Assembly: GCF_001921215.1 (NCBI RefSeq)
Contig: NZ_MSIF01000002.1
Location: 124,001 to 188,000 of the forward strand
Direction of reading: 5' to 3'
Length of the DNA: 64,000 nucleotides
Source: Actinophytocola xinjiangensis
GTDB taxonomy: Bacteria; Actinomycetota; Actinomycetes; Mycobacteriales; Pseudonocardiaceae
Shown here one piece after another: positions 1,715 to 26,051 of this stretch. The notes beneath the pieces are model-generated. The model saw only the letters and a program-made list of their open reading frames with translations. It made no database searches and was not told where the DNA came from. Position 1 is the stretch's first letter; every line of letters starts with the position of its first letter. The translations under genes and the position numbers were made by a program.

Positions 1715-4578
1715 GCCGGCTGCCGGGCCATGGCGGCCTGGGTGTCGGCCAGACCGGCGAGCGCCAGGGCCCGCTGGTGGCGGTGGCCGAGGTTCTCGGC
1801 GATGACCAGCGCCTGCTCGTAGTGCTCGACGGCGTCGGCGTGCGCGCCGTTCAGACGGTGCAGTTCCCCCAGGACCAGCAGCGGGTCGGCGGCCTTGAGC
1901 CGGAAACCGGCCTCGCGGGCGATGGCCGCGCAGCGCCACGCCCAGGCGAACGCCTCGGCGCGCATCCCCAGCCGCCAGTACACGGTGGCCAGCACGTGCA
2001 GCTGCGCCTCACCGATCCGGCTGCCCAGCTCGACGACCATCGCGCGGGAGCGTTCCAGGTGCGTGCGGGCGGCGTGGTCGTCGCCGGACCAGTGGTCGGT
2101 CTGGCCGAGCATGAGGTGGACGATCGACTGGAGGTAGGGGTTGTCGACCTCGGTGGCCAGGGCCAGGGCGGTGGTCAGGTGCCGGCGGGCCTCGTCGTGG
2201 CGGCCGAGGTGGGCGAGCACGTCGCCGATCCTGGCCTGGATGTGGGCGTGCAGGACCGTCGGCACGTCGTCGAGGCCGGACACCAGCTCGACGCAGGTCC
2301 GGGCGGCGGCCAGCGCGGCCCGGTGCTGGCCGAGCTGGGTGTGGGTGGAGCTGATGGTGATCAGCGGCAGCGCCGCGAACAGCGGCTCACCGAGGTCCAG
2401 GTACAGCGTGTGCGCGCGCTGGCCACTGGCCAGTGACTCCTCGACGCGGCCGAGCCGGGAGTAGGTGGCGGCCAGGACGCGGGTGATGTGCGCGTAGGCG
2501 AGCCGGTCGCCGCCGGTCACCGCGCGCAGCGCCGCCTGGCACAGGGCGAGCGAGTCGTCGAGGTGGGCGTTCTGCAGGTACCTGGCCAGGACGAGCGCCA
2601 GGTCGACGGTGACCGCCGGGCGCCCGGCGCCCAGCGCCACGGCCACCAGCGTGGCGCGTTCGGCCGCCAGCCAGGCGCGGGCCGCGCGCGGGGTGTCCAG
2701 CGCTGGCCGGGGCGGGTCGGCCGGGGGCGGGACGGGCCGGCGCATGACCTCCTGCGGCTCGACCTGCGCCACGGCCGTGGCCGCCGCGTCGAGGTAGTGC
2801 GCCTCCAGCCGGCGCGTGGCGGCGTCGCGCCCGGCGGCGGTCTCCTCGGTGGTGACCAGCTCGGCGGCGTAGGCGCGGAGCAGGTCGTGGGCGCGGAGCC
2901 GGCCCTCTGGGGAGCGTTCCAGCAGGTAGGCGCTGACCAGCAGGTCGACCGCGCTGCGGGTGGCGTGCAGGTCGGTGCCGGCGAGCGCGGCCAGCGCCAC
3001 GGTGTCGGTGTCGGCGCCGGGATGCAGGCCGGTGAGGCGGAACAGCCGGGCGGCCGGGGCGGGCAGGCCCCGGTAGGACCAGGAGAACACCGCGCGCACC
3101 GACGAGTGGGCGTCGCCGTCGACGTGCAGCACGTCGAGCCGGCCGTGTTCGTCGGACAGTTCGGCGACCAGGTCGGCCAGCCGGGTCGCGGGGCGCGAGT
3201 TGGCCAGCTCGGTGACGATCCGCAGCGCCAGCGGCAGCCGCGCGCACTGCTCGACCAGCACGTCGATCGTGGCCCGGTCGGTGTCCGCGCGTGTGCGCAG
3301 CAGCCGGCCGACCAGCGCCGAGGAGTCGCGCCCGGACAGCGGGCCGAGTTCCAGCCGCCGCGCCCCGTCGCGGACCACCAGGCCGGTGAGCGCGTCGCGG
3401 CTGGTGACCACGACCGCGCAGGTCGGGGTGCCGGGCAGCAGCGGGCGGACCTGCTCGACGGTGCGCGCGTTGTCCAGCACGACCAGCAGCGCCCGCCCGG
3501 CGCACTCGCTGCGCAGCCGCATCGCCCGCCCGTCGGTGTCCGGTGGGAGCTGGTGGCTGGGCACGCCGAGCTGGTGCAGGACGGTGCCCAGCGCCTCGTT
3601 GGCGCGCAGTGGCTCGTCGGGGCCGTAGCCGCGCAGGTCGACGTGCAGCTGGCCGTCGGGGAAGCGGTCGGCGGCCAGCCGCGCCCAGTGCACCACCAGC
3701 GCGGTCTTGCCGACGCCGCCCGCGCCGGAGACCACCACCAGCGGCCCGGCGCCGGCTGCGGTGTCCAGTTCGGACAGCTCGACGTCGCGGCCGACGAAGT
3801 CGGCGACGACGTGCGGGAGCTGGCGGGGCACGGGGCGGCGGGCCTGCTCGGCGTCGAGGTCGGCGCCGGCGAGGATGCGCTGCTCGACGGCCCGCAGTTC
3901 GGGGCCGGGTTCCAGGCCGAGCTCGTCGACCAGGCGGCGGCGGGTGCGGCGGAACACGGCGAGCGCGTCGGCCTGCCGGCCGCAGCGGTGGAGCGCGGTC
4001 ATCAGCTGCCCGCACAGCCGTTCCCGCAGCGGGTGCCGGGCGACGGCCTCGGTGAGCTCGCCGGTGATCTCGGTGTGCCGGCCGGCGCGCAGCTCGGCGT
4101 CGTAGAGCAGTTCCCTGGCCGACTCGCGACGCTCGGCCAGGCGCCAGGCCTCGCCGAGGACCCCCACGGCGTCGACGCCGTCGTAGGCCTCGCCGTACCA
4201 CAGGGACAGTGCGCGGCGGATGGTGGTGGCGCGGCGGGCCGGGTCCGGTTCGTCACGCGCCCGGTCCAGCAGGGCCTCGAAGCCGACGGCGTCGACCTCG
4301 TCGTCGTGGGTGGCCAGCCGGTAGGCGCCGTGCTCGAACCGCAGCCGCGCCGGGTCGTCGAGCACCCGGCGCAGGCGGGTCACGTGGACCTGGAGGCGGC
4401 TGGAGCCGGGGGTGTACGGCTCGCCGGGCCACAGGGCGTCGAACAGCGCCTCGGTCGACACCCCGGTGTCCGGTCCGGACAGCAGCACCGCGAGCAGCTT
4501 GCGCTGCAACGTTCCCAGGGACACCACCGTGCCGTCGGCGCGCACGATCCGCACCGGGCCGAGAACCTGGAACTCCAT
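1705..4578 (-). CDS. AfsR/SARP-type transcriptional regulator (BTAD, NB-ARC, TPR)
   Basis: A 957-residue regulator built like AfsR. It has an N-terminal OmpR-like winged helix (residues 1-90, beginning MEFQVLGPVRIV) and a bacterial transcriptional activator domain (about 95-245, including PLRERLCGQLMTALHRCGR). A STAND/NB-ARC ATPase follows with P-loop SGAGGVGKT near residue 286, then a Walker-B-like LLVVLDNARTVEQV. C-terminal TPR-like helices run from about 600 to the end. Such proteins bind direct repeats near promoters and activate secondary metabolism or development, with ATP binding as the switch. The start at 4578 is chosen because an AGGAGG lies just upstream and homology begins exactly there; the frame stays open further upstream without conserved sequence. 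It is divergent from a WXG-like gene pair. Confidence 0.92.
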   Translation of the reverse strand: MEFQVLGPVRIVRADGTVVSLGTLQRKLLAVLLSGPDTGVSTEALFDALWPGEPYTPGSSRLQVHVTRLRRVLDDPARLRFEHGAYRLATHDDEVDAVGFEALLDRARDEPDPARRATTIRRALSLWYGEAYDGVDAVGVLGEAWRLAERRESARELLYDAELRAGRHTEITGELTEAVARHPLRERLCGQLMTALHRCGRQADALAVFRRTRRRLVDELGLEPGPELRAVEQRILAGADLDAEQARRPVPRQLPHVVADFVGRDVELSELDTAAGAGPLVVVSGAGGVGKTALVVHWARLAADRFPDGQLHVDLRGYGPDEPLRANEALGTVLHQLGVPSHQLPPDTDGRAMRLRSECAGRALLVVLDNARTVEQVRPLLPGTPTCAVVVTSRDALTGLVVRDGARRLELGPLSGRDSSALVGRLLRTRADTDRATIDVLVEQCARLPLALRIVTELANSRPATRLADLVAELSDEHGRLDVLHVDGDAHSSVRAVFSWSYRGLPAPAARLFRLTGLHPGADTDTVALAALAGTDLHATRSAVDLLVSAYLLERSPEGRLRAHDLLRAYAAELVTTEETAAGRDAATRRLEAHYLDAAATAVAQVEPQEVMRRPVPPPADPPRPALDTPRAARAWLAAERATLVAVALGAGRPAVTVDLALVLARYLQNAHLDDSLALCQAALRAVTGGDRLAYAHITRVLAATYSRLGRVEESLASGQRAHTLYLDLGEPLFAALPLITISSTHTQLGQHRAALAAARTCVELVSGLDDVPTVLHAHIQARIGDVLAHLGRHDEARRHLTTALALATEVDNPYLQSIVHLMLGQTDHWSGDDHAARTHLERSRAMVVELGSRIGEAQLHVLATVYWRLGMRAEAFAWAWRCAAIAREAGFRLKAADPLLVLGELHRLNGAHADAVEHYEQALVIAENLGHRHQRALALAGLADTQAAMARQPAQS

Positions 4579-4674
4579 CGCAGCCTCCTGGCCGGACCCT
4601 ACCCACGGGCCTGGCGCGGACCGGCGAGTTTCGGTTCTGGCCGAACATGTAAGCGCGATGCAAGTGTTTGTTCG

Positions 4675-4680
4675 TACCGT
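4675..4680 (+). promoter_or_regulatory. Candidate -10 box for a leaderless WXG-like mRNA
   Basis: TACCGT ends seven bases before the ATG at 4688, and no Shine-Dalgarno lies between. This fits transcription starting at or next to the start codon. No convincing -35 hexamer is seen. A short dyad, TTCGG-6-CCGAA, lies upstream at about 4630-4645 between the two divergent genes and could be an operator. Confidence 0.35.
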
Positions 4681-4687
4681 CCGGTCC

Positions 4688-5824
4688 ATGTCATTCTCCG
4701 TAGACACGGACGCCCTGTGGTCGTTCCGCGACCTGGTGGGCAACCTGAAATCCGATGCCATGGCGATGGACGCGTTCATCTCCGAGAACAGGGTGATGAG
4801 CCTGCACGAGGAGGGCCTGGCGAACCGGCTGGCCTTCGGCCACGAGGGCATCGTGCGGGACATGCAGTACCGGGTGGGCATGCTGCGCGACGAGGCGGGC
4901 AACTCCGCGAAAGGCGTGGAAAACACCGCCGTCCTCTACGAGGAGCAGGAGCAGGACAACGCCCAGACACTCGACGAGGCCTACCCTGACGCCGGGGCCT
5001 ACGAGCAGGACCCGGACCGTGCGGGGGAGCCGGACTCGGCGGGCAAGTCCGGGTTCCCGCACTACCGGGCGGAGAACGCCCTGACGATGGGGGACATCCC
5101 GACCAAGGCCGAGATGATGGCCCACGACGTGGAGGACTGGGCGCGCACCGGCCTCGACGGGATCAGCATGATCGGGCTGTGCCGCATGGTCTGGGAGAAC
5201 GCGGTCGGTTTCGACCTGACCGACTGGATCCGCAAGTGGTACTTCGGGGACTGGGAGGGCTGGGCGAGGTGCGTCCAGATGTGGAAGGCGTGCGCGGAGA
5301 CCACCGACATCATCGCGGAGAACCTCTGGGCCGGTATCGGTGAGCTCGCCGAGACCTGGGAGGGGCGCGCGTTCGAGGACGCCGACACCTACTTCCGGCA
5401 GTTCCGCGACGCCATCTACGTCGAGCACGACGCGTTCTCCGCCCTGGAGAAGATCTACGAGCTGATCATGGAGGCGATCTTCGAGATCCACCTCCTGATG
5501 AACGACGTGATCAACACGGCGGTGGACCTCGCGATCCAGATCGCGACGTTGGGCACGGCCGGAGGGATCAAGGCGGCCATCAAGGCGGCGCTGAGCGTCG
5601 GCGCCTCGAACCCGGTGTCCACGCTCATCAACTGCGTCAGCTCGCTCGGCACGCTGCTCACGCTCGCCTCGGACGTGGTCAAGATCGTCGAGACGGTGTC
5701 CTCGGCCACCGATCTGCCGCAGGTCCCGGCGTGCGAGCTGGAGAAGTTCGACCCGGTGGGCCGGGAGTACGGCTACGAGTACCAGGAGCAGGAGCAGCCG
5801 CCGACCGATGTGGAAGGACCCTGA
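4688..5824 (+). CDS. WXG100-like putative type VII secretion substrate
   Basis: A 378-residue, largely helical protein without a signal peptide. The first 100 residues look like an ESX/WXG100-type helical hairpin (MSFSVDTDALWSFRDLVGNL onward). A second hairpin later contains AETWEGRAFEDADTYF, a W-x-G turn followed by a Tyr-rich helix. A hydrophobic segment (TALDL-type Ala/Ile-rich stretch, about residues 270-330) precedes an acidic, Gln/Glu-rich tail. This build resembles proteins exported by actinobacterial type VII systems, but no ESX machinery gene is in the window, so secretion is inference. The downstream gene starts two bases after its stop, so the two are almost certainly one transcript. 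Confidence 0.6.
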   Translation: MSFSVDTDALWSFRDLVGNLKSDAMAMDAFISENRVMSLHEEGLANRLAFGHEGIVRDMQYRVGMLRDEAGNSAKGVENTAVLYEEQEQDNAQTLDEAYPDAGAYEQDPDRAGEPDSAGKSGFPHYRAENALTMGDIPTKAEMMAHDVEDWARTGLDGISMIGLCRMVWENAVGFDLTDWIRKWYFGDWEGWARCVQMWKACAETTDIIAENLWAGIGELAETWEGRAFEDADTYFRQFRDAIYVEHDAFSALEKIYELIMEAIFEIHLLMNDVINTAVDLAIQIATLGTAGGIKAAIKAALSVGASNPVSTLINCVSSLGTLLTLASDVVKIVETVSSATDLPQVPACELEKFDPVGREYGYEYQEQEQPPTDVEGP

Positions 5825-17868: not shown

Positions 17869-18639
17869 CTACTTCTCGCTCGCCTCGTCGTAGCGGTCGG
17901 CCATCGCCTGGTAGGCGTTCACCATCGTGACCTCGCGGAAATGTTTCGCGGCCTTCTCCAGGTCCCAGGACACCGTGTCCGCGTGGCGCCCGCGATCCAG
18001 GCCGCCCATCGTCAGCCGGAGCATGAAGTCACGTTCGGTGTCCAGGATGAACCCGCTGAGGGTCGTGCCGGTGCCGGTGTCGCCCAACAGGACGGTGGCC
18101 TCCTCCCACGGGCCGTCCTCGGTGCGCTCGGCCAGGGTGTCCGGCTCGTAGATGTCGCGCATGAGTTGCATCATCAGGTCGTAGCGTCCGGTCCTGGTCC
18201 GGTACTTCTCGTCGTGCAGCGTGTTGTTCGACATGTCGGCGCGACCGAAGCCGATCGCGATCGTCCCCTTGAGGTTGTTGATCGCGCGCTCGGGATCCTC
18301 GGCGTAGATGGCGCGGCCCTCGCAGATCCGGACCCCGGCCGTGTTCGCACCGTTCGAACTGAACAGCTCGCCGTCGAACCTCACGTAGTCCAGGTACTCG
18401 GCGAACTCGCGCACGTGGTCGGCGAACATGTCGCAGGCCTTCCAGCCCTCGATGGTGGCCGCCTTCACCTCCTCGAACGACCGGGTGCTGGGCGGCGTGG
18501 GGGGCTTGGGCCCGCCGCCACCGCCCCCGCCGAAGTCGCCGAGGCCGCCGTCGCTGTCGCTTCCGCACGCGGTGAGCAGCAGGCTGACGGCGAGGACCGC
18601 CGCGATGGCCAGCCGCCGCGGGTGAACAGGGGTGGGCAT
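17869..18639 (-). CDS. Putative lipoprotein
   Basis: 256 residues with a lipoprotein signal: basic start, Leu/Ala core and lipobox LLTAC with Cys25. A Gly/Pro-rich linker follows, then a globular domain of about 200 residues (SFEEVKAATIEGWKACDMF, later DLMMQLMRDIYEPDTLAERT) with one likely disulfide pair. The overall look is that of the small actinobacterial cell-surface lipoproteins related to DUF3558, but I cannot confirm the family. It is transcribed as a single gene, ending 10 bp upstream of the MerR-type promoter. Confidence 0.75.
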   Translation of the reverse strand: MPTPVHPRRLAIAAVLAVSLLLTACGSDSDGGLGDFGGGGGGGPKPPTPPSTRSFEEVKAATIEGWKACDMFADHVREFAEYLDYVRFDGELFSSNGANTAGVRICEGRAIYAEDPERAINNLKGTIAIGFGRADMSNNTLHDEKYRTRTGRYDLMMQLMRDIYEPDTLAERTEDGPWEEATVLLGDTGTGTTLSGFILDTERDFMLRLTMGGLDRGRHADTVSWDLEKAAKHFREVTMVNAYQAMADRYDEASEK

Positions 18640-18745
18640 GACGTCCTCCGGAGCTCAGTGGGTCTGGGCACGCCGGTGCCCACAACTGAGCGTGACGCTA
18701 GGTCGCCGGCAACCCCACCGGGGTCCGGTGAACACCGGACAGGCG

Positions 18746-18961
18746 CTACACCCGCTCCTTGACGATCGCCGCGATCAGCTCCGGGCTACAGCCCACGGCG
18801 GTGGCCAGCGCGCGGTAGGACCACCGCCTCGGGTCGGACTCCCGCAGGCGGCGGACCAGCGCGTTGCGTTGCTGTCGATGTCGTTCGGCCAGGGCGAGGG
18901 CCGCCTCGGCCGCGCGATGGTGCTCGCGGGCCTGCTGCGCGGCGATGTCCGAGACGCCCAC
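18746..18961 (-). CDS. Small helix-turn-helix-like protein in the Ro60 operon
   Basis: 71 residues beginning with GTG three bases after the Ro60/TROVE stop, so it is certainly co-transcribed. The first half is a charged Ala/Arg helix (HHRAAEAALALAERHRQQRN), the second reads like a helix-turn-helix (WSYRALATAVGCSPELIAAI). Such proteins can bind DNA or structured RNA. Its position next to an RNP gene suggests a Ro60- or Y-RNA-related role, which is inference. Confidence 0.65.
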   Translation of the reverse strand: MGVSDIAAQQAREHHRAAEAALALAERHRQQRNALVRRLRESDPRRWSYRALATAVGCSPELIAAIVKERV

Positions 18962-18964
18962 CGG

Positions 18965-20560
18965 TCACAGACCCCGGGCGAAGTCCGAGATCAGCGTCGG
19001 TACCGAGGCGTCGAACCCGGCGACGTCGAGCATGCCGGGATCGGTCGGGTCGGCGATCGAGAACCGGGTCGCCGTCATGCCGACCACCACCAGCTTCGCG
19101 TCGATGCCGGTGTGGTCGCGGTAGCGCGCCAGCGCCTGGTGCGGGTGGACGCTCCCGGCCCACGTCTCGTTGTCGGTGTAGCAGACGAACGTGTCCACCT
19201 CCAGGCCCCGGTCCAGGGCCGCCAGCATCGGCAGCGCGCAGTCCGTGGCACCGAACGGCAGGTCCGACACCGCGCGGACGGCGTCGTCCAGCCGCTGACC
19301 AGGGCTGATCGACAGCGTGCTGAGCGCCCCGAGCCCGCCGCCGGTGAAGCCGACGATCTCGTAGGCCGACTCCGTCGACGCGGTCACCAACGACAGCGCC
19401 GCCGACGCCTCACGCGGGGTGATCGGCAGGCCGCTGACCGGGTGGAAACTCATCGACCCGGACACGTCCAGCGCCAGCATCAGCCGCCGGCCCGACGGCT
19501 CCACCGCGCCGAACGCCGCGTAGAACGCCTGGTCCAGCGCGTCCACGACCGGGCGCGACGGCTCCCACCGCGACTCGCCCCTGGCGCTGTGGCCGGCGGC
19601 GTAGGTGCGCTGGGCGACCAGCACGTTCACCGGGTGCACCCTGGCCGCGCGCAGCCTGTCCGGATCGGACAGTCGGGCGGCGACCTCGGCGGTGCGGGCC
19701 GACAGCGGAGACAGCAGGCCCAGCCGGGTCAGGCGTGGCAGCTGACGCAGCAGCGCCGTCTGCGGCATTCCCCGCTCCAGCAACGCCTCCCACACCACCG
19801 GCGCGTTGAGGTGCTCGTCGGGCAGCATCTCCCACGACAGGCCGAACTCGGTGACCAGCGCCGCGACCTGCTCGGCCGACGTCGCCGCCCGCGCCCGCCG
19901 GAAACCGTCCACAACGGACAGCCCGTCGACCGGGGTGTCGTCGTGGCCCAGGATCCAGCGGAACAGGGCGGTACGCCGCTCGTCGTCGGTCCTCGGGTGG
20001 GCCAGGCGCAGCAGGTCGCGGTGCGACCAGCCCTCACGCTGGCGGTACTTCACCGCCTGGAACGCGACCTCGTCCACCGGCCGGTCCAGGTACCAGTTGG
20101 CCACCGCGCGGCGCAGGCCACGGCCCCAGCCACGGAACTGCTCGACGTAGCGGGCGAACAGGAACAGGTGCGTGCCGGTACGCGCCACCAGCGGCAGCGC
20201 GTCCAGCGCGGCCCGGCGGCCATCGTCGTCGCCCAGCGAACAGGCGGCGGCGAGCGCGAAGATCGCCGGGTTCTGCCGGGGCGCCCGCCCGCCGTGGGAC
20301 ACGGCGACGATCTCGGCCACCAGTTCGGTGGTCGCCGTGGTCGCCATCTCCAGCACGACACCGGCGTTGTCCCTGGTCAGGTCGGGGGCGTCGGTGTAGT
20401 AGGTGCCGCCGTCGGTGCCCAGGACGAGGAAGCGGCGCAGCCTGGTCGCCGCGTCGACGGTGAAGGTGTGGCCGCCGGCGTTGTTGGGGACCTGACGGGC
20501 GTCGGCCGGCTGGGACTGGGGGGTGGCGCGGGTGCTGATGGCGGTGAGCGGATCGGCCAC
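18965..20560 (-). CDS. rsr: Ro60 orthologue (TROVE + VWA domain), Rsr-like
   Basis: 531 residues. Residues about 20-340 form the TROVE HEAT-like ring (PNNAGGHTFTVDAATRLRRF, then RFLVLGTDGGTYY), which in Ro proteins binds misfolded RNA ends in its cavity and Y RNA on its rim. Residues about 350-531 are a von Willebrand A domain with the MIDAS motif DVSGSMS near residue 365. Bacterial Ro (Rsr) acts in RNA quality control, and with Y RNA it can tether to PNPase. GTG 20560 has GAGGAG upstream. Two Y-RNA-like sequences lie directly upstream on the same strand, and a small HTH-like gene follows. Confidence 0.93.
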   Translation of the reverse strand: MADPLTAISTRATPQSQPADARQVPNNAGGHTFTVDAATRLRRFLVLGTDGGTYYTDAPDLTRDNAGVVLEMATTATTELVAEIVAVSHGGRAPRQNPAIFALAAACSLGDDDGRRAALDALPLVARTGTHLFLFARYVEQFRGWGRGLRRAVANWYLDRPVDEVAFQAVKYRQREGWSHRDLLRLAHPRTDDERRTALFRWILGHDDTPVDGLSVVDGFRRARAATSAEQVAALVTEFGLSWEMLPDEHLNAPVVWEALLERGMPQTALLRQLPRLTRLGLLSPLSARTAEVAARLSDPDRLRAARVHPVNVLVAQRTYAAGHSARGESRWEPSRPVVDALDQAFYAAFGAVEPSGRRLMLALDVSGSMSFHPVSGLPITPREASAALSLVTASTESAYEIVGFTGGGLGALSTLSISPGQRLDDAVRAVSDLPFGATDCALPMLAALDRGLEVDTFVCYTDNETWAGSVHPHQALARYRDHTGIDAKLVVVGMTATRFSIADPTDPGMLDVAGFDASVPTLISDFARGL

Positions 20561-20677
20561 GGCGGGCTCCTCGGGGGACGGGCGACCGGCAGGGCCGCGG
20601 GCGAGTGAGCGACGACCGGAGCTTTGACAGAGTTAACCGGCCGCCTCCGGCCCGCGGTGTCCTGCCGGCGTGAGCGG

Positions 20678-20807
20678 ATCGCGGGCAAGGGTGTGACGAC
20701 CGGGATTGCCCACCGCTCTACCCCAGAGCTCAGCACGGACGAGCCGTGCCGACGGGAGTCGAACCCGCACCTGTGGGTCCGATAACCGATCATCTTCGGC
20801 CCGCGAT
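20678..20807 (-). ncRNA. Y RNA with circularly permuted tRNA-like module (YrlA type)
   Basis: About 130 nt. The ends pair in a 9-bp stem (ATCGCGGGC 20807-20799 with 20686-20678). A CGAA / ACACCCTT internal loop follows, then a second 9-bp helix (GATGATCGG with CCGGTCGTC, two G-U pairs). The GGGCCGA / CTTGCCC elements facing each other match the Ro-binding stem of Y RNAs. Inside are a CCCAC/GTGGG stem, a T-arm with canonical loop TTCGACT (20763-20757), a closed acceptor-like hairpin GCACGG/CCGTGC, and a D-arm GCTC-TGGGGTA-GAGC. T-arm, acceptor and D-arm in this order is the permuted tRNA mimic known from YrlA. The true 5' and 3' ends are unmapped. Confidence 0.85.
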
Positions 20808-20818
20808 TGGCGAGGAGG

Positions 20819-20916
20819 GGGTGGGCAAGTGGTGCCGACCGGAGTCGTCCGGCAGGCCGGACAGTGCGGGAATCGAACCCGCGCACACCAGGTAACCGAT
20901 CGTCGTCGGCCCACCC
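20819..20916 (-). ncRNA. Second Y RNA, reduced tRNA-like module
   Basis: About 98 nt ending 11 nt upstream of the larger Y RNA. Terminal 8-bp stem GGGTGGGC / GCCCACCC; internal loop CGACGA / GCACCACTT; 7-bp helix CGATCGG / CCGGTCG. The GGGCCGA / CTTGCCC signature and the segment GATCGGTTA are shared with its neighbour. The distal part has a T-arm with loop TTCGATT and an acceptor-like hairpin GTCCGG-CCTG-CCGGAC, but no D-arm and no clear anticodon-like stem. Sequence elsewhere differs from the neighbour, so this is an old duplication or an independent Y RNA. A possible 5' extension reaches the predicted start near 20940. Confidence 0.8.
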
Positions 20917-20946
20917 GGACCTCGCGCTGTTCTGTTGTCGACCTCG

Positions 20947-20975
20947 ACTGTAATGGGTTACAGGTTGCCGCGCAA
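20947..20975 (-). promoter_or_regulatory. Predicted promoter for the tandem Y RNAs (and Ro60)
   Basis: On the minus strand, TTGCGC (20975-20970), a 17-bp spacer and TACAGT (20952-20947) make a good housekeeping-type promoter just after the glycosyltransferase stop. Transcription would start near 20940, about 25 nt before the first Y RNA stem. Nothing between it and the Ro60 start (20560) looks coding; 20561-20677 holds only the Ro60 leader with its ribosome site. Confidence 0.6.
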
Positions 20976-20982
20976 AGGAATT

Positions 20983-21963
20983 TCAGACCAGTCGCGGAAG
21001 CTCGCTGGCGACCTCGTCCGGCGAGGGCAACGCGGCGATCTCGGCGGCCACCGCCTTGGCCGCGTCCCGGAACTCACTTCCGTTGGGCGCCAACAGCGTC
21101 CGGGCCGTCTCGGTGATCGCCTCCGGCGAGGTTTCCTCGGGCAGCAGCCGCGCCCCGGCGCCGGCGGCCAGCAGCGCCTCGGCGTTGGCGAACTGGTCGG
21201 CCCCCTGCGGCAGCACCAACTGCGGGACCCCGGCCGCGAGCGCGCCCAGCGTCGTGCCGCTGCCGCCGTGGTGCACCACCAGGTCCACCCCTGCCAGCAG
21301 CCGCGCCTGCGGCACCCACGCCGAGGCGACCACGTTCGCCGGCAGGTCGACCAGCGTCGGCGCCATCGGGCCGGCCACCAGCACCGTCACCCCCAGCCGC
21401 GCCAGGCCGGCGACCGCCGTGGCCAGGACCTCCGTGGCGCCGAACGCGGTGCCCAGGGTCAGGTAGACCAGCGGGCGGTCCAGCGTGGGCGGCTCGCCCG
21501 GCTCGGCGAAGGGCACCGGGCGCACCGGGACCCGCCGCGCGCTGGCCAGGAAGTCCTTGTCCTGCAAGGACGGCGGGCAGATGTCCAGGTGCGTGCCGGT
21601 GGCCTCGGCGACCCGCGTCGGCAGTTCCAGGCCGATGCCGTCGGGGAACATCCGGCCGAAGCCGTGCCACAGGCCGGGGACACCGGCCCGGTGCGCGGCG
21701 ATCGCCGCCCCCGGGACACCCCAGCCGTGGATCACCAGGTCGGGGGACAACCGCGCGATCTCCGGGGCCAGGTCCTCGGCGTAGATCTCGTAGAACACGT
21801 CCGCCGGGCGGAACGGGCGCAGGCCCGCCGACGCCAGCGGGGCGTGGACGTGCTCCCCGGCGGCGAACCACACCTCGTGCCCGGCGTCGCGGGCCGCCTC
21901 GGCCAGCGGAATCATCGGATACGTGTGGCCGACCGAGGCGAGGCTGGCGAACAACAGACGCAT
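20983..21963 (-). CDS. UGT/GT1-family glycosyltransferase
   Basis: 326 residues with GT-B fold of the macrolide/MGT group. The N-terminus MRLLFASLASVGHTYPMIPL is the classic acceptor-domain start. The C-terminal donor site has VVHHGGSGTTLGALAAGVP then PQGADQFANAEAL near residues 228-260. At 326 residues it is shorter than the usual 380-420, with the N-terminal domain condensed. It transfers a nucleotide-activated sugar to a small molecule; no partner sugar genes are nearby. Its start is separated from the YggT gene by 16 bp. Confidence 0.88.
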   Translation of the reverse strand: MRLLFASLASVGHTYPMIPLAEAARDAGHEVWFAAGEHVHAPLASAGLRPFRPADVFYEIYAEDLAPEIARLSPDLVIHGWGVPGAAIAAHRAGVPGLWHGFGRMFPDGIGLELPTRVAEATGTHLDICPPSLQDKDFLASARRVPVRPVPFAEPGEPPTLDRPLVYLTLGTAFGATEVLATAVAGLARLGVTVLVAGPMAPTLVDLPANVVASAWVPQARLLAGVDLVVHHGGSGTTLGALAAGVPQLVLPQGADQFANAEALLAAGAGARLLPEETSPEAITETARTLLAPNGSEFRDAAKAVAAEIAALPSPDEVASELPRLV

Positions 21964-23683: not shown

Positions 23684-25978
23684 TCAGGGGGTCGGCCGGC
23701 CCGGATCGGGGCGGGTGCGCCCCCGGCGGGTGCCGGACTCGATCGCGGAGAACAGGTCCCGGGAGCTCGCCGGGGACCGCTCGCGCCGGGTCGAGGGCTG
23801 GGTCGAGGGCTGGGTGGGGGCCGACGGCGGCGAGGTCGACAGCTGCGGGGCGAGGTTGGCCTGCCGGCGGCGCCGGGGCAGCTCGGGACGGCCGGTGGTG
23901 GGGGCCGGCTCCGCCGCGGCCGGAGCCGGGGGCGGCGGCGCGGCACGCTCGACCCGTTCGGTGCGGGTGTCCTGGGCCACCGCCGGGACCTGGGCGTGCC
24001 GGGGTGCCGGCGGCTCCTCGGTCGGCCACTCGACGGCCGGGGCCCGGTGGCGTCGCGGGGGTGGGGTGGTGTGGTCGGGCCGCACGCCGTTCACCTCGCT
24101 TCTGACGGTCAGGTCGGTCGGGATGAGCACGATCGCGCGCACCCCGCCGTAGGCGGACTCGGTCAGCCGGACCGTCACGCCGTTGCGCGCGGCGATCTGA
24201 CCGACCACCAGCAGACCCATCCGGGAGTCGCTGGACAGGGTGGTCGCGCTGAAGTCCGGCGGACGCGTGAGCAACTCGTTGAGCTGGTCGAGGTGCTCCT
24301 CGGTCATGCCGAGACCCTGGTCGACGACCTCCACCGCGACCCCCCGGCCCACGACGTTGCCCGCGACCTCCACCCTGGACTCCGGCGGGGAGAACGACGT
24401 CGCGTTCTCCACCAGCTCGGCCAGCAGGTGGATGAGGTCGGCCACCACGTTGCCCACGATGGACACGTTGGCCAACTGTCCGGTCAGGACCCGCGCGTAG
24501 TCCTCGGTCTCGGCGATCGCACTGCGCACCAGCTCCACCAGCGGCACCGGGTTGCGCCACTGCCGGCCTGGCTGCTCGCCGCCGAGGATGATCAGGTTCT
24601 CCGCGTTGCGCCGGGCGCGGGTGGCCAGGTGGTCGAGCTTGAACAGCAGCTCCAGACGCCGCGGATCCTCCTCGCCGTGCTCGGCGTGGTCGAGCAGCTC
24701 CAACTGGCGGTGCACGACGATCTGGCTGCGGTGGGCGATGTTGAGGAACAGCGCGTTGACCCCGTCGCGTGTGCGGGCCTCGGTGACCGCCGCCGCCACG
24801 GCACTGGACTCGGCGTGGTTGAACGCCTCGGCGACCTCACCGATCTCGTCGCCGCCGAAGTCCAGCGGCTGGATCTCGGTGGTGACGTCGACCTGCTCAC
24901 CGGAACGCAGCCGGGTGATGATGTCGGGCAACCGCTCGTCGGCCAGGGTGAGCGTCTCGGACCGCAGTCGCCGCAGCCGGCTGATCAGCCGCCCGGAGAT
25001 GCGCAGCGTCACCACGCTCGCGACCAGCGCGGCCACCAGCATCGCGATGCCGGCGATCAGCCAGCCGGTCGCGGTGCGCTCCCCGGAGTCGACCGCCGAG
25101 TCGACCACGGCGGTGTTCTGGCTGCGCCACAGCTCGATCAGCTCGGTGCCGACGGTCGCGGCGGCGTCCTGCCAGTCGGCGCGGCTGACCGGCAGCGCGT
25201 CGGTACCCCGGCCGACACCGCGTTCCAGCAGGGCGTTCTCCACACCCGTGAGCCGCTGCCACTCGGGGCTGGCGCGCAGCGCGTCCAGACGAGCGCGGTC
25301 GGCCTCGCGCAGCAGCGGGCCCACGGAGTTCAACGTCGACTGGTAGGAGCCGACCTGGCGGGAGTACTCGTGCAGCCGCTCGGCGGTCATGTCGCCCGCG
25401 GCCACCAGGGCCAGCGCGTTGCCGCGCGACATCGACTCGGCCGCCTCGAACAGTTCCACGGTCATCGCCCCGTCGGCGGCGGACTCGGCGTCGGGCATGT
25501 TGCCGGCCAGCGAGCGGGAGGCGTTGAGGATCCGGTCGACGATCTGGTTGTAGAAGCCGTAGATCTGGTCCGGTGGCGCGGCGCCGGCGTCCACACCGCC
25601 CCGGACCTGCGCGAAGGCGGCGATCGCGGTGTCCTGGTCGTCGGTGCTGCCGCCGCTGAGCGCGTTCTCCTGCGCGGCGAGCAGCGCGCCGGAGCTCAGC
25701 AGCTGGTCGACCCGTTCGCGGGCACCGGTCAGGCCGTCGGTCACCGACCGGTCGCCGGCGAGCAACATCATGCTCAGCCGGCGTTCCTCCTGGAGGACCT
25801 CGGCGAACTCGATGGCCGGTTCGATCGCCTCGCGCAGTTCGACGGCCTCGTCGCGGACCTCGTAGCCCTCGAAGGTCAGGAACCCGGCGAAGCCGACGCC
25901 GATGGCCAGCAGCGTCACACTGGGAATCAGTGCGATGGACAGGATCCGTGTGCGAACTCCGAGCCGGATCTTCCTCAC
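23684..25978 (-). CDS. cvnA: Conservon sensor histidine-kinase-like protein CvnA
   Basis: 764 residues. A membrane anchor at about 15-35, an extracellular nitrate-sensor-like helical domain (about 40-305), a second membrane segment (AGIAMLVAALVASVVTL), a HAMP-like linker, a DHp-like helix pair (HRQLELLDHAEH) and a HATPase domain (ELVENATSFSPPESRVEV, then VDQGLGM and GLLVVGQIAARNGVTV). The last 125 residues are Pro-rich and disordered. GTG 25978 follows GGGG at good spacing; TTG 25984 is possible. It is the sensor of the conservon. Confidence 0.92.
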   Translation of the reverse strand: MRKIRLGVRTRILSIALIPSVTLLAIGVGFAGFLTFEGYEVRDEAVELREAIEPAIEFAEVLQEERRLSMMLLAGDRSVTDGLTGARERVDQLLSSGALLAAQENALSGGSTDDQDTAIAAFAQVRGGVDAGAAPPDQIYGFYNQIVDRILNASRSLAGNMPDAESAADGAMTVELFEAAESMSRGNALALVAAGDMTAERLHEYSRQVGSYQSTLNSVGPLLREADRARLDALRASPEWQRLTGVENALLERGVGRGTDALPVSRADWQDAAATVGTELIELWRSQNTAVVDSAVDSGERTATGWLIAGIAMLVAALVASVVTLRISGRLISRLRRLRSETLTLADERLPDIITRLRSGEQVDVTTEIQPLDFGGDEIGEVAEAFNHAESSAVAAAVTEARTRDGVNALFLNIAHRSQIVVHRQLELLDHAEHGEEDPRRLELLFKLDHLATRARRNAENLIILGGEQPGRQWRNPVPLVELVRSAIAETEDYARVLTGQLANVSIVGNVVADLIHLLAELVENATSFSPPESRVEVAGNVVGRGVAVEVVDQGLGMTEEHLDQLNELLTRPPDFSATTLSSDSRMGLLVVGQIAARNGVTVRLTESAYGGVRAIVLIPTDLTVRSEVNGVRPDHTTPPPRRHRAPAVEWPTEEPPAPRHAQVPAVAQDTRTERVERAAPPPPAPAAAEPAPTTGRPELPRRRRQANLAPQLSTSPPSAPTQPSTQPSTRRERSPASSRDLFSAIESGTRRGRTRPDPGRPTP

Positions 25979-26051
25979 CCGCAACCCCCGACCGAACCGT
26001 TTGTCTTCTCCTGGCAGGAAAAACGACCCTTGTGAGGTCGTGGCGGCCGCG

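Follow-up and report, generated by a model that had tools for sequence, protein, structure and literature searches.

A probable Ro60 ribonucleoprotein locus with three Y RNAs in Actinophytocola xinjiangensis

We identify, in a 64,000-nucleotide stretch of the Actinophytocola xinjiangensis genome (contig NZ_MSIF01000002.1, positions 124,001 to 188,000; hereafter the window), a locus that very probably comprises a Ro60 gene (ro60/rsr) and three Y RNAs, a true bacterial equivalent of the Ro60 particle that serves RNA quality control in animals; we put the probability of this reading at about 90%. Bacterial Ro ribonucleoproteins (RNPs) pair a Ro60 orthologue with adjacent Y RNAs that have a Ro60-type closing stem and a tRNA-like effector domain (excerpts of PMC8394870, PMC7790460 and PMC4726728). 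On the minus strand of the window the order is Y-A, Y-B, Y-C, ro60 and a gene for a 71-residue helix-turn-helix (HTH) protein, with successive gaps of 12, 21, 34 and 3 nt. The whole Ro RNP locus is compact, at about 2.2 kb. A first-pass annotation of the same DNA, made from the letters alone, had proposed a promoter, two tandem Y RNAs, a Ro60 gene and a small HTH-type gene.

The ro60 gene and its three RNAs

The ro60 gene (18965–20560, minus strand, as for all features of the locus) has a GTG start and encodes 531 residues with a TROVE ring and a vWA domain. Both the TROVE (PF05731, E = 1.5e-45) and Ro60-vWA (PF25045, E = 3.4e-60) models match above their Pfam cut-offs, which bears out the TROVE/VWA gene of the first-pass annotation. 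Alignments spanning the whole protein were obtained to both Deinococcus radiodurans Rsr (2nvo, E = 2.8e-121) and Xenopus-type Ro60 (1yvp, E = 2.1e-108). A lysine, an arginine and a histidine align to K170, R174 and H187 of Xenopus Ro60, which we take to be Y RNA contacts. This is the one TROVE gene of the genome.

The three RNAs upstream were delimited using a covariance model, R1, and a motif-plus-pairing detector with a top score of 16, whose 5′ pattern demands TT[AC]NC. In all three, 5′ GGGC-C-G[AG] lies opposite CUUGCCC or CUCGCCC, with a single bulged C as in Y RNAs, and the inner helix ends in CGG followed by UUANC. The two RNAs noted in the first pass do have GGGCCGA opposite CTTGCCC and GATCGG in the second helix, as described there. 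That both are present stands, whereas the count was one short: the third, Y-C, had been overlooked, and the tRNA-like parts of the other two were absent from the earlier description.

Y-A (98 nt, 20819–20916) combines the Ro60-binding-type stem with a partial tRNA mimic consisting of a T arm and a closed acceptor-like hairpin, with no clear D arm. Its T arm (GCGGG-TTCGATT-CCCGC, 20866–20882) is evident from the sequence and places it in the detector's tRNA-T class; UUACC, a motif of UUAYC type, follows immediately 3′ of the inner helix (20891–20895). R1 matches Y-A with 36.3 bits (E = 3.2e-4), and its pairing score of 16 is the detector maximum. Y-B (128 nt, 20679–20806; class tRNA-TD) is a full, circularly permuted tRNA mimic: a T arm (20752–20768) and a D arm (20715–20729), each read from the sequence and a consensus fold, flank a closed acceptor-stem hairpin (20733–20749) that is also seen by folding. 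Its sequence carries the motif as UUAUC (20781–20785). Y-C (63 nt, 20595–20657) is a minimal Y RNA, with the Ro60-binding-type stem and inner helix and without an effector domain; the counterpart of UUAYC is the variant UUAAC (20632–20636). Its R1 score of 75.0 bits tops the window's three, Y-C itself being among the eight sequences from which R1 was built, and it is the sole R1 match genome-wide at E ≤ 0.001. No additional Y RNA copies were found elsewhere in the genome at that limit, R1 being strong for the minimal class only and missing Y-A and Y-B at the same limit. In the sister locus of Actinophytocola xanthii (L002), the available sequence begins 107 nt before ro60, so only the 3′ half of a Y-C-like RNA is visible; that half resembles Y-C.

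Comparative evidence for the RNAs

Single-sequence folding of the three RNAs is weak; the evidence for them is comparative. We picked 66 related loci by the Ro60 protein alone and aligned seven minimal RNAs from them with Y-C (alignment A2), supplying the secondary structure of R1 by hand; A2 is a reduction from 12 sequences (A1) to eight, made before R1 was built by removing those of L019, L024, L030 and L061. A first R1 search, of both strands of the window and the 66 loci (67 sources, 647,069 bases), gave 117 matches at E ≤ 1. A second, of 59 viral contigs and five further genome loci (64 sources, 323,752 bases; L143 excluded), gave 106, with none in L147 or L148. Together these make 223 matches in 131 sources (0.97 Mb), with at least one match in 116 sources: 60 of the 66 genome loci, 52 of the 59 viral loci and three of the five further genome loci. 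Setting aside four matches in loci that were not pre-oriented and treating the window's three apart leaves 216, none of which is antisense and none of which lies inside or downstream of the ro60 match. Among 113 sources, the window included, 46 have one match, 35 two, 25 three and seven four.

Covariation in homologous loci, named beforehand in the first-pass annotation as a refutation test, is strong. In the alignment from the first search, 95.1% of 2016 cells are paired and double changes occur at 14 of 18 pairs; none of 500 shuffles equalled the observed pairing and covariation, and sliding the partner by one column lowers pairing to 52.1% or 49.4%. For the tRNA-mimic RNAs, a MAFFT alignment (A6) was made of Y-B and 26 of its 53 relatives, hand-picked for diversity. 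RNAalifold, with no structure imposed on these 27 RNAs, recovered the Ro stem, inner stem, T arm, closed acceptor and D arm, with double changes at 18 of 30 pairs; the D-arm pairs are invariant and hence uninformative either way. The detector points the same way. At a score of 16 it finds, on both strands of the 64 kb, exactly the three Y RNAs, with one extra place at 15 and five at 14, and at 14 the sense upstream DNA of the 66 related loci (81,761 nt) yields 132 hits, against 16 in the control DNA (930,019 nt).

Several points weigh against this reading. The covariation count was obtained on an alignment fitted to R1, with its hand-supplied structure, and one of the R1 sequences, L046, is doubtfully delimited (82 nt on a later reading versus 63). 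R1 covers the 5′ part of Y-B alone (20733–20806, E = 0.078), and 15 of the 131 sources, some of which start near ro60, have no R1 match. Folding z-scores of the single sequences are modest (−2.28, −1.88 and −0.94), that of Y-C not being significant. The protein matches the NCBIfam Rsr model NF041674 along its full length (550.2 bits, E = 4.1e-165) and misses the cut-off of 900 bits; as that cut-off is tight and was missed, our claim is of a Ro60/Rsr-like orthologue rather than of that NCBI equivalog. In this organism the Y RNAs and their binding to Ro60 are predictions from sequence.

Ro60 loci, the HTH gene and Y RNA classes in bacteria and viruses

A Ro60 match at E ≤ 1e-3 is present in 14 of 297 Pseudonocardiaceae genomes (A. 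xinjiangensis included); in five of these, again including our own, it extends across nearly the whole protein, and in one it is partial and strong. The nearest named locus is that of A. xanthii, at 74%. Neither Ro60 nor the HTH protein matched a PADLOC defence model at E ≤ 0.001. Two loci outside this group merit mention. A Candidatus Brocadia metagenome-assembled genome (MAG; L048), remote from the Actinobacteria, encodes a Ro60 that is 50% identical to that of the window, with two minimal Y RNAs, and reflects either horizontal transfer or a mis-binned contig. In an Eremiobacterota MAG (L056), ro60 is flanked on both sides by tRNA genes, with 14 Rfam tRNA matches in 1819–5764.

The small HTH-type gene of the first-pass annotation is present 3 nt downstream of ro60 (18746–18961), and its product is modelled by AlphaFold2, at a mean pLDDT of 94.6, as a helix of 40 residues leading into a helix-turn-helix. 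In 27 of 66 genome loci a relative of it (tblastn, E < 1e-10) starts −4 to 288 nt from where the ro60 match ends. Relatives at E ≤ 1e-3 occur in 15 of 60 viral contigs, no more than 30 nt away in 12 and at 374, 711 and 1196 nt in the other three, and in an annotated phage collection all five records with an HTH match carry Ro60 as the adjacent gene. In bacteria and phages alike the HTH gene is a conserved neighbour on the downstream side of ro60, and its product may regulate the operon or act as a partner of the Ro RNP. There is no PDB sequence match below E = 0.13 and no Foldseek match at E ≤ 0.001, the best (E = 0.65) being mitoribosomal proteins; Pfam gives MRP-L20 at E = 2e-6, under its cut-off, and there is a weak spanin match (E = 5e-4). 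The best matches by both sequence and fold, all weak, are to mitochondrial ribosomal proteins.

The patchy distribution of Ro60 in the family, the presence of a Ro60 relative in 347 phage records and the identical order (Y RNAs, ro60, HTH gene) in Gordonia phage BearBQ would all suit a Ro RNP cassette of phage origin that has only recently become a domesticated part of the chromosome and has a phage-type role such as RNA remodelling in infection. We regard this as unlikely, since the neighbouring genes examined are non-phage (glycosyltransferase-like, MerR and HEAT-repeat), the best Ro60 relatives lie on Pseudonocardiaceae and Nocardia contigs (67–76%), and the highest values are 67% for the annotated phage collection and 68% for viral contigs.

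Y RNA classes were counted at detector scores of at least 14; candidates scoring 13, minimal and other, were removed beforehand because many are cut-off tRNA-mimic RNAs. Of the 66 genome loci, 58 hold a total of 131 RNAs, of which 40 have both T and D arms, 47 a T arm, five a weak T arm and one a D arm only; nine are minimal and 29 other. The viral loci hold 115 in 46 of 60, divided in the same order into 15, 25, 1, 0, 43 and 31. A detector hit is absent in eight of 66 genome and 14 of 60 viral loci, some of which begin too near ro60 and some of which have R1 matches. The minimal RNAs are 61–78 nt long and occur in eight genome and 33 viral loci; those of viruses are often near-identical (43 RNAs, 35 distinct). 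Judged by their predicted structures, effector-less Y RNAs are a class that recurs across loci.

Other inserts were observed as well. A subclass of approximately 100 nt has two GC-rich hairpins, the first mostly GCCCTC...GAGGGC, in place of the tRNA mimic; this insert is possibly another effector module. It is the last RNA before ro60 in eight loci from Cellulomonas, Nocardioides and two actinobacterial MAGs (L014:3865–3966, L031:3837–3938, L032:3862–3965, L034:3840–3939, L037:3864–3965, L038:3862–3965, L039:3860–3964 and L040:3866–3966). In the low-GC viral contigs L106–L110, L112, L114, L115, L119 and L120, each with a minimal Y RNA of 69–72 nt carrying UUAYC, a detector hit of 157–164 nt in the 'other' class lies upstream of the minimal RNA. 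The three of these longer RNAs that were read contain a GGACGG-type hairpin insert and no T-loop motif, which makes a non-tRNA effector module possible.

Y-C might be a cis-regulatory leader rather than a separate Y RNA, with Ro60 binding its own mRNA to repress or stabilize it. Y-C ends 34 nt before the GTG, and across 113 sources the distance from the end of the last R1 match to the ro60 match has a median of 51 nt (10th–90th percentile 27–202; range 9–960). Yet 22 of the 52 minimal Y RNAs lie further upstream in multi-RNA arrays and are not the last, and the minimal RNAs have the closing stem common to other Y RNAs, so that we consider a purely regulatory leader improbable, somewhat more so than the phage cassette. 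The two roles are compatible: through its position in the ro60 leader, Y-C may enable Ro60 to act upon the mRNA that encodes it while being a Y RNA.

Known Ro RNPs, the UUAYC motif and a possible mechanism

The nearest known kind of system is the Deinococcus/Salmonella-type bacterial Ro RNP. As in D. radiodurans (Rsr and Y RNA, forming RYPER with PNPase) and in Salmonella and Mycobacterium smegmatis (Rsr and Yrl), the Y RNAs of the window lie beside ro60 on the same strand and combine a Ro60-type closing stem with a tRNA-like domain, full in Y-B and partial in Y-A. The window differs in having three Y RNA architectures, one of them effector-less, together with the UUAYC loop motif, a downstream HTH gene and no adjacent rtcB. 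In 2014 Chen reportedly described, for over 250 bacteria and phages, one or more tRNA-like Y RNAs in every species. A link with the rtcBA RNA-repair operon was rejected: the single RtcB match is on contig C7 and the window on C12, no search having been made for rtcA.

Nothing in the window matches Rfam at gathering thresholds, so membership of the Y RNAs is shown by our own model. The Rfam comparison suggested in the first pass did return two relevant families, all matches being below threshold. In a permissive search of 551 bases, YrlA (RF02553), which has the same order of T arm, closed acceptor and D arm as Y-B, matches Y-B at E = 0.041 and Y-A at E = 8.6 (21.7 and 13.7 bits; gathering 69). 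No YrlA match reaches gathering in the window or in 15 relatives, with Nocardia relatives attaining up to 49.1 bits (E = 8.6e-9). In our own reading of the alignment, the YrlA consensus has AACUAC where the window's RNAs carry UUAYC after the inner helix. The nematode stem-bulge RNA (sbRNA) family RF01656 matches Y-C at E = 3.7e-5, Y-B at 0.016 and Y-A at 0.02 (33.8, 23.8 and 23.4 bits; gathering 38). The Y-C match, spanning 20594–20659, is the best Rfam match of the region, and the family exceeds gathering in one Nocardia locus and one viral locus. The window's RNAs share the lower-stem bulged C and a UUAUC-type motif at the 5′ end of the loop with nematode sbRNAs and vertebrate Y RNAs, as these are described in PMC4726728 and PMC4450293; they are without an oligo-U tail. 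Bacterial Y RNAs are called not homologous with the vertebrate clades in an excerpt of PMC4726728, and the likeness may reflect a shared Ro60-binding constraint rather than descent.

The RNAs could conceivably be remnants of tRNA or tmRNA genes close to a TROVE gene, as their T-loop and D-arm sequences are tRNA-like and weak tRNA-Sec matches occur (E = 0.13 and 3.2), but this is highly improbable given that ARAGORN finds no tRNA at the Y RNAs, that the arms are permuted (T, closed acceptor, D) within a covarying Ro60-type stem and that, of 125 genome and viral loci examined with R1, 112 have a Y RNA match upstream of ro60. Elsewhere in the window, ARAGORN calls a tRNA-Arg (23883–23979, plus strand) within a long minus-strand open reading frame (ORF; 23684–25984); it is not confirmed by Rfam at gathering and so is probably false. 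On plasmid pAQ7 of Picosynechococcus sp. PCC 7002 (L152:1157–1411), a TROVE gene is closely preceded by two Rfam tRNAs of 107 and 123 nt, above gathering, the first of which overlaps a YrlA match below threshold; these are probably false calls from the permuted tRNA mimics of tandem Y RNAs.

The loop motif recurs among the relatives of the locus. The 203 distinct R1 matches comprise 171 with UUAYC, 14 with UUCUC, nine with UUAAC and nine with something else, a count biased towards the motif because R1 carries UUAYC. In a set of 136 regular-expression candidates, the two bases after a forced GGTTA are TC or CC in 130, and in some low-GC viral RNAs UUAUC is kept while the preceding GG is lost. 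In both sbRNAs and vertebrate Y RNAs, UUAUC is located at the loop's 5′ end, and the DNA-replication activity of sbRNAs required it, as stated in excerpts of PMC4726728 and PMC4450293. These two papers and a nematode exosome paper were the only literature found on UUAUC with Y RNAs or Ro60, in a search that did not cover the main bacterial Y RNA papers.

The chromosomal Ro RNP operon, Y-A to the HTH gene, is probably transcribed as one unit from which the Y RNAs would be excised, as the close spacing of its elements suggests. The promoter of the first-pass annotation did not hold up: no sigma-70-like sites were found in 18500–21200, although actinobacterial promoters may escape the scan, and there were no terminator-like sites in the same interval. 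A processed single transcript is the simplest reading of the spacing and of the lack of a promoter or terminator inside. The want of a consensus promoter belongs with the points set against the locus above.

By comparison with animal Y RNAs, the closing stem with its bulged C would hold each RNA on the outer surface of the Ro60 ring. Y-A and Y-B would use their tRNA-like modules to recruit a tRNA-recognizing partner or PNPase, as the Deinococcus Y RNA does, a step to which we give an even chance. Ro60 would then, by the same analogy, pass structured or damaged RNA to the nuclease. The genome encodes one PNPase above cut-off (879.8 bits), so a RYPER-like complex is possible. Y-C would offer Ro60 a grip without a tether. 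Its likeliest role is that of a simple gate, covering the substrate surface and competing with the RNAs that tether, a suggestion we make tentatively and at less than even odds. Both this gate role and PNPase recruitment in A. xinjiangensis are drawn from analogy, and this, too, counts on the negative side.

Two proposals are put forward jointly and with reserve, the pair being in our view rather less likely to hold than to fail. One is that the Ro RNPs of actinobacteria and viruses draw on a modular set of Y RNAs: full-mimic, partial-mimic and effector-less forms would come from a single operon, in a ratio that would set the balance between nuclease tethering and gating. The other is that UUAYC would be an ancestral element of the Ro RNP itself, retained in bacteria, vertebrates and nematodes alike. 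For annotation there is a direct gain, as no Rfam family reaches threshold in the window and ORFs can be drawn over the Y RNAs; mechanical ORFs do overlap them, as the first-pass annotation had warned. With three Y RNA architectures in one natural locus, the tether and gate roles would be separable by deletion of single RNAs, and UUAYC offers a test of whether a motif credited to DNA replication in vertebrates and nematodes is really an ancient element of the Ro RNP.

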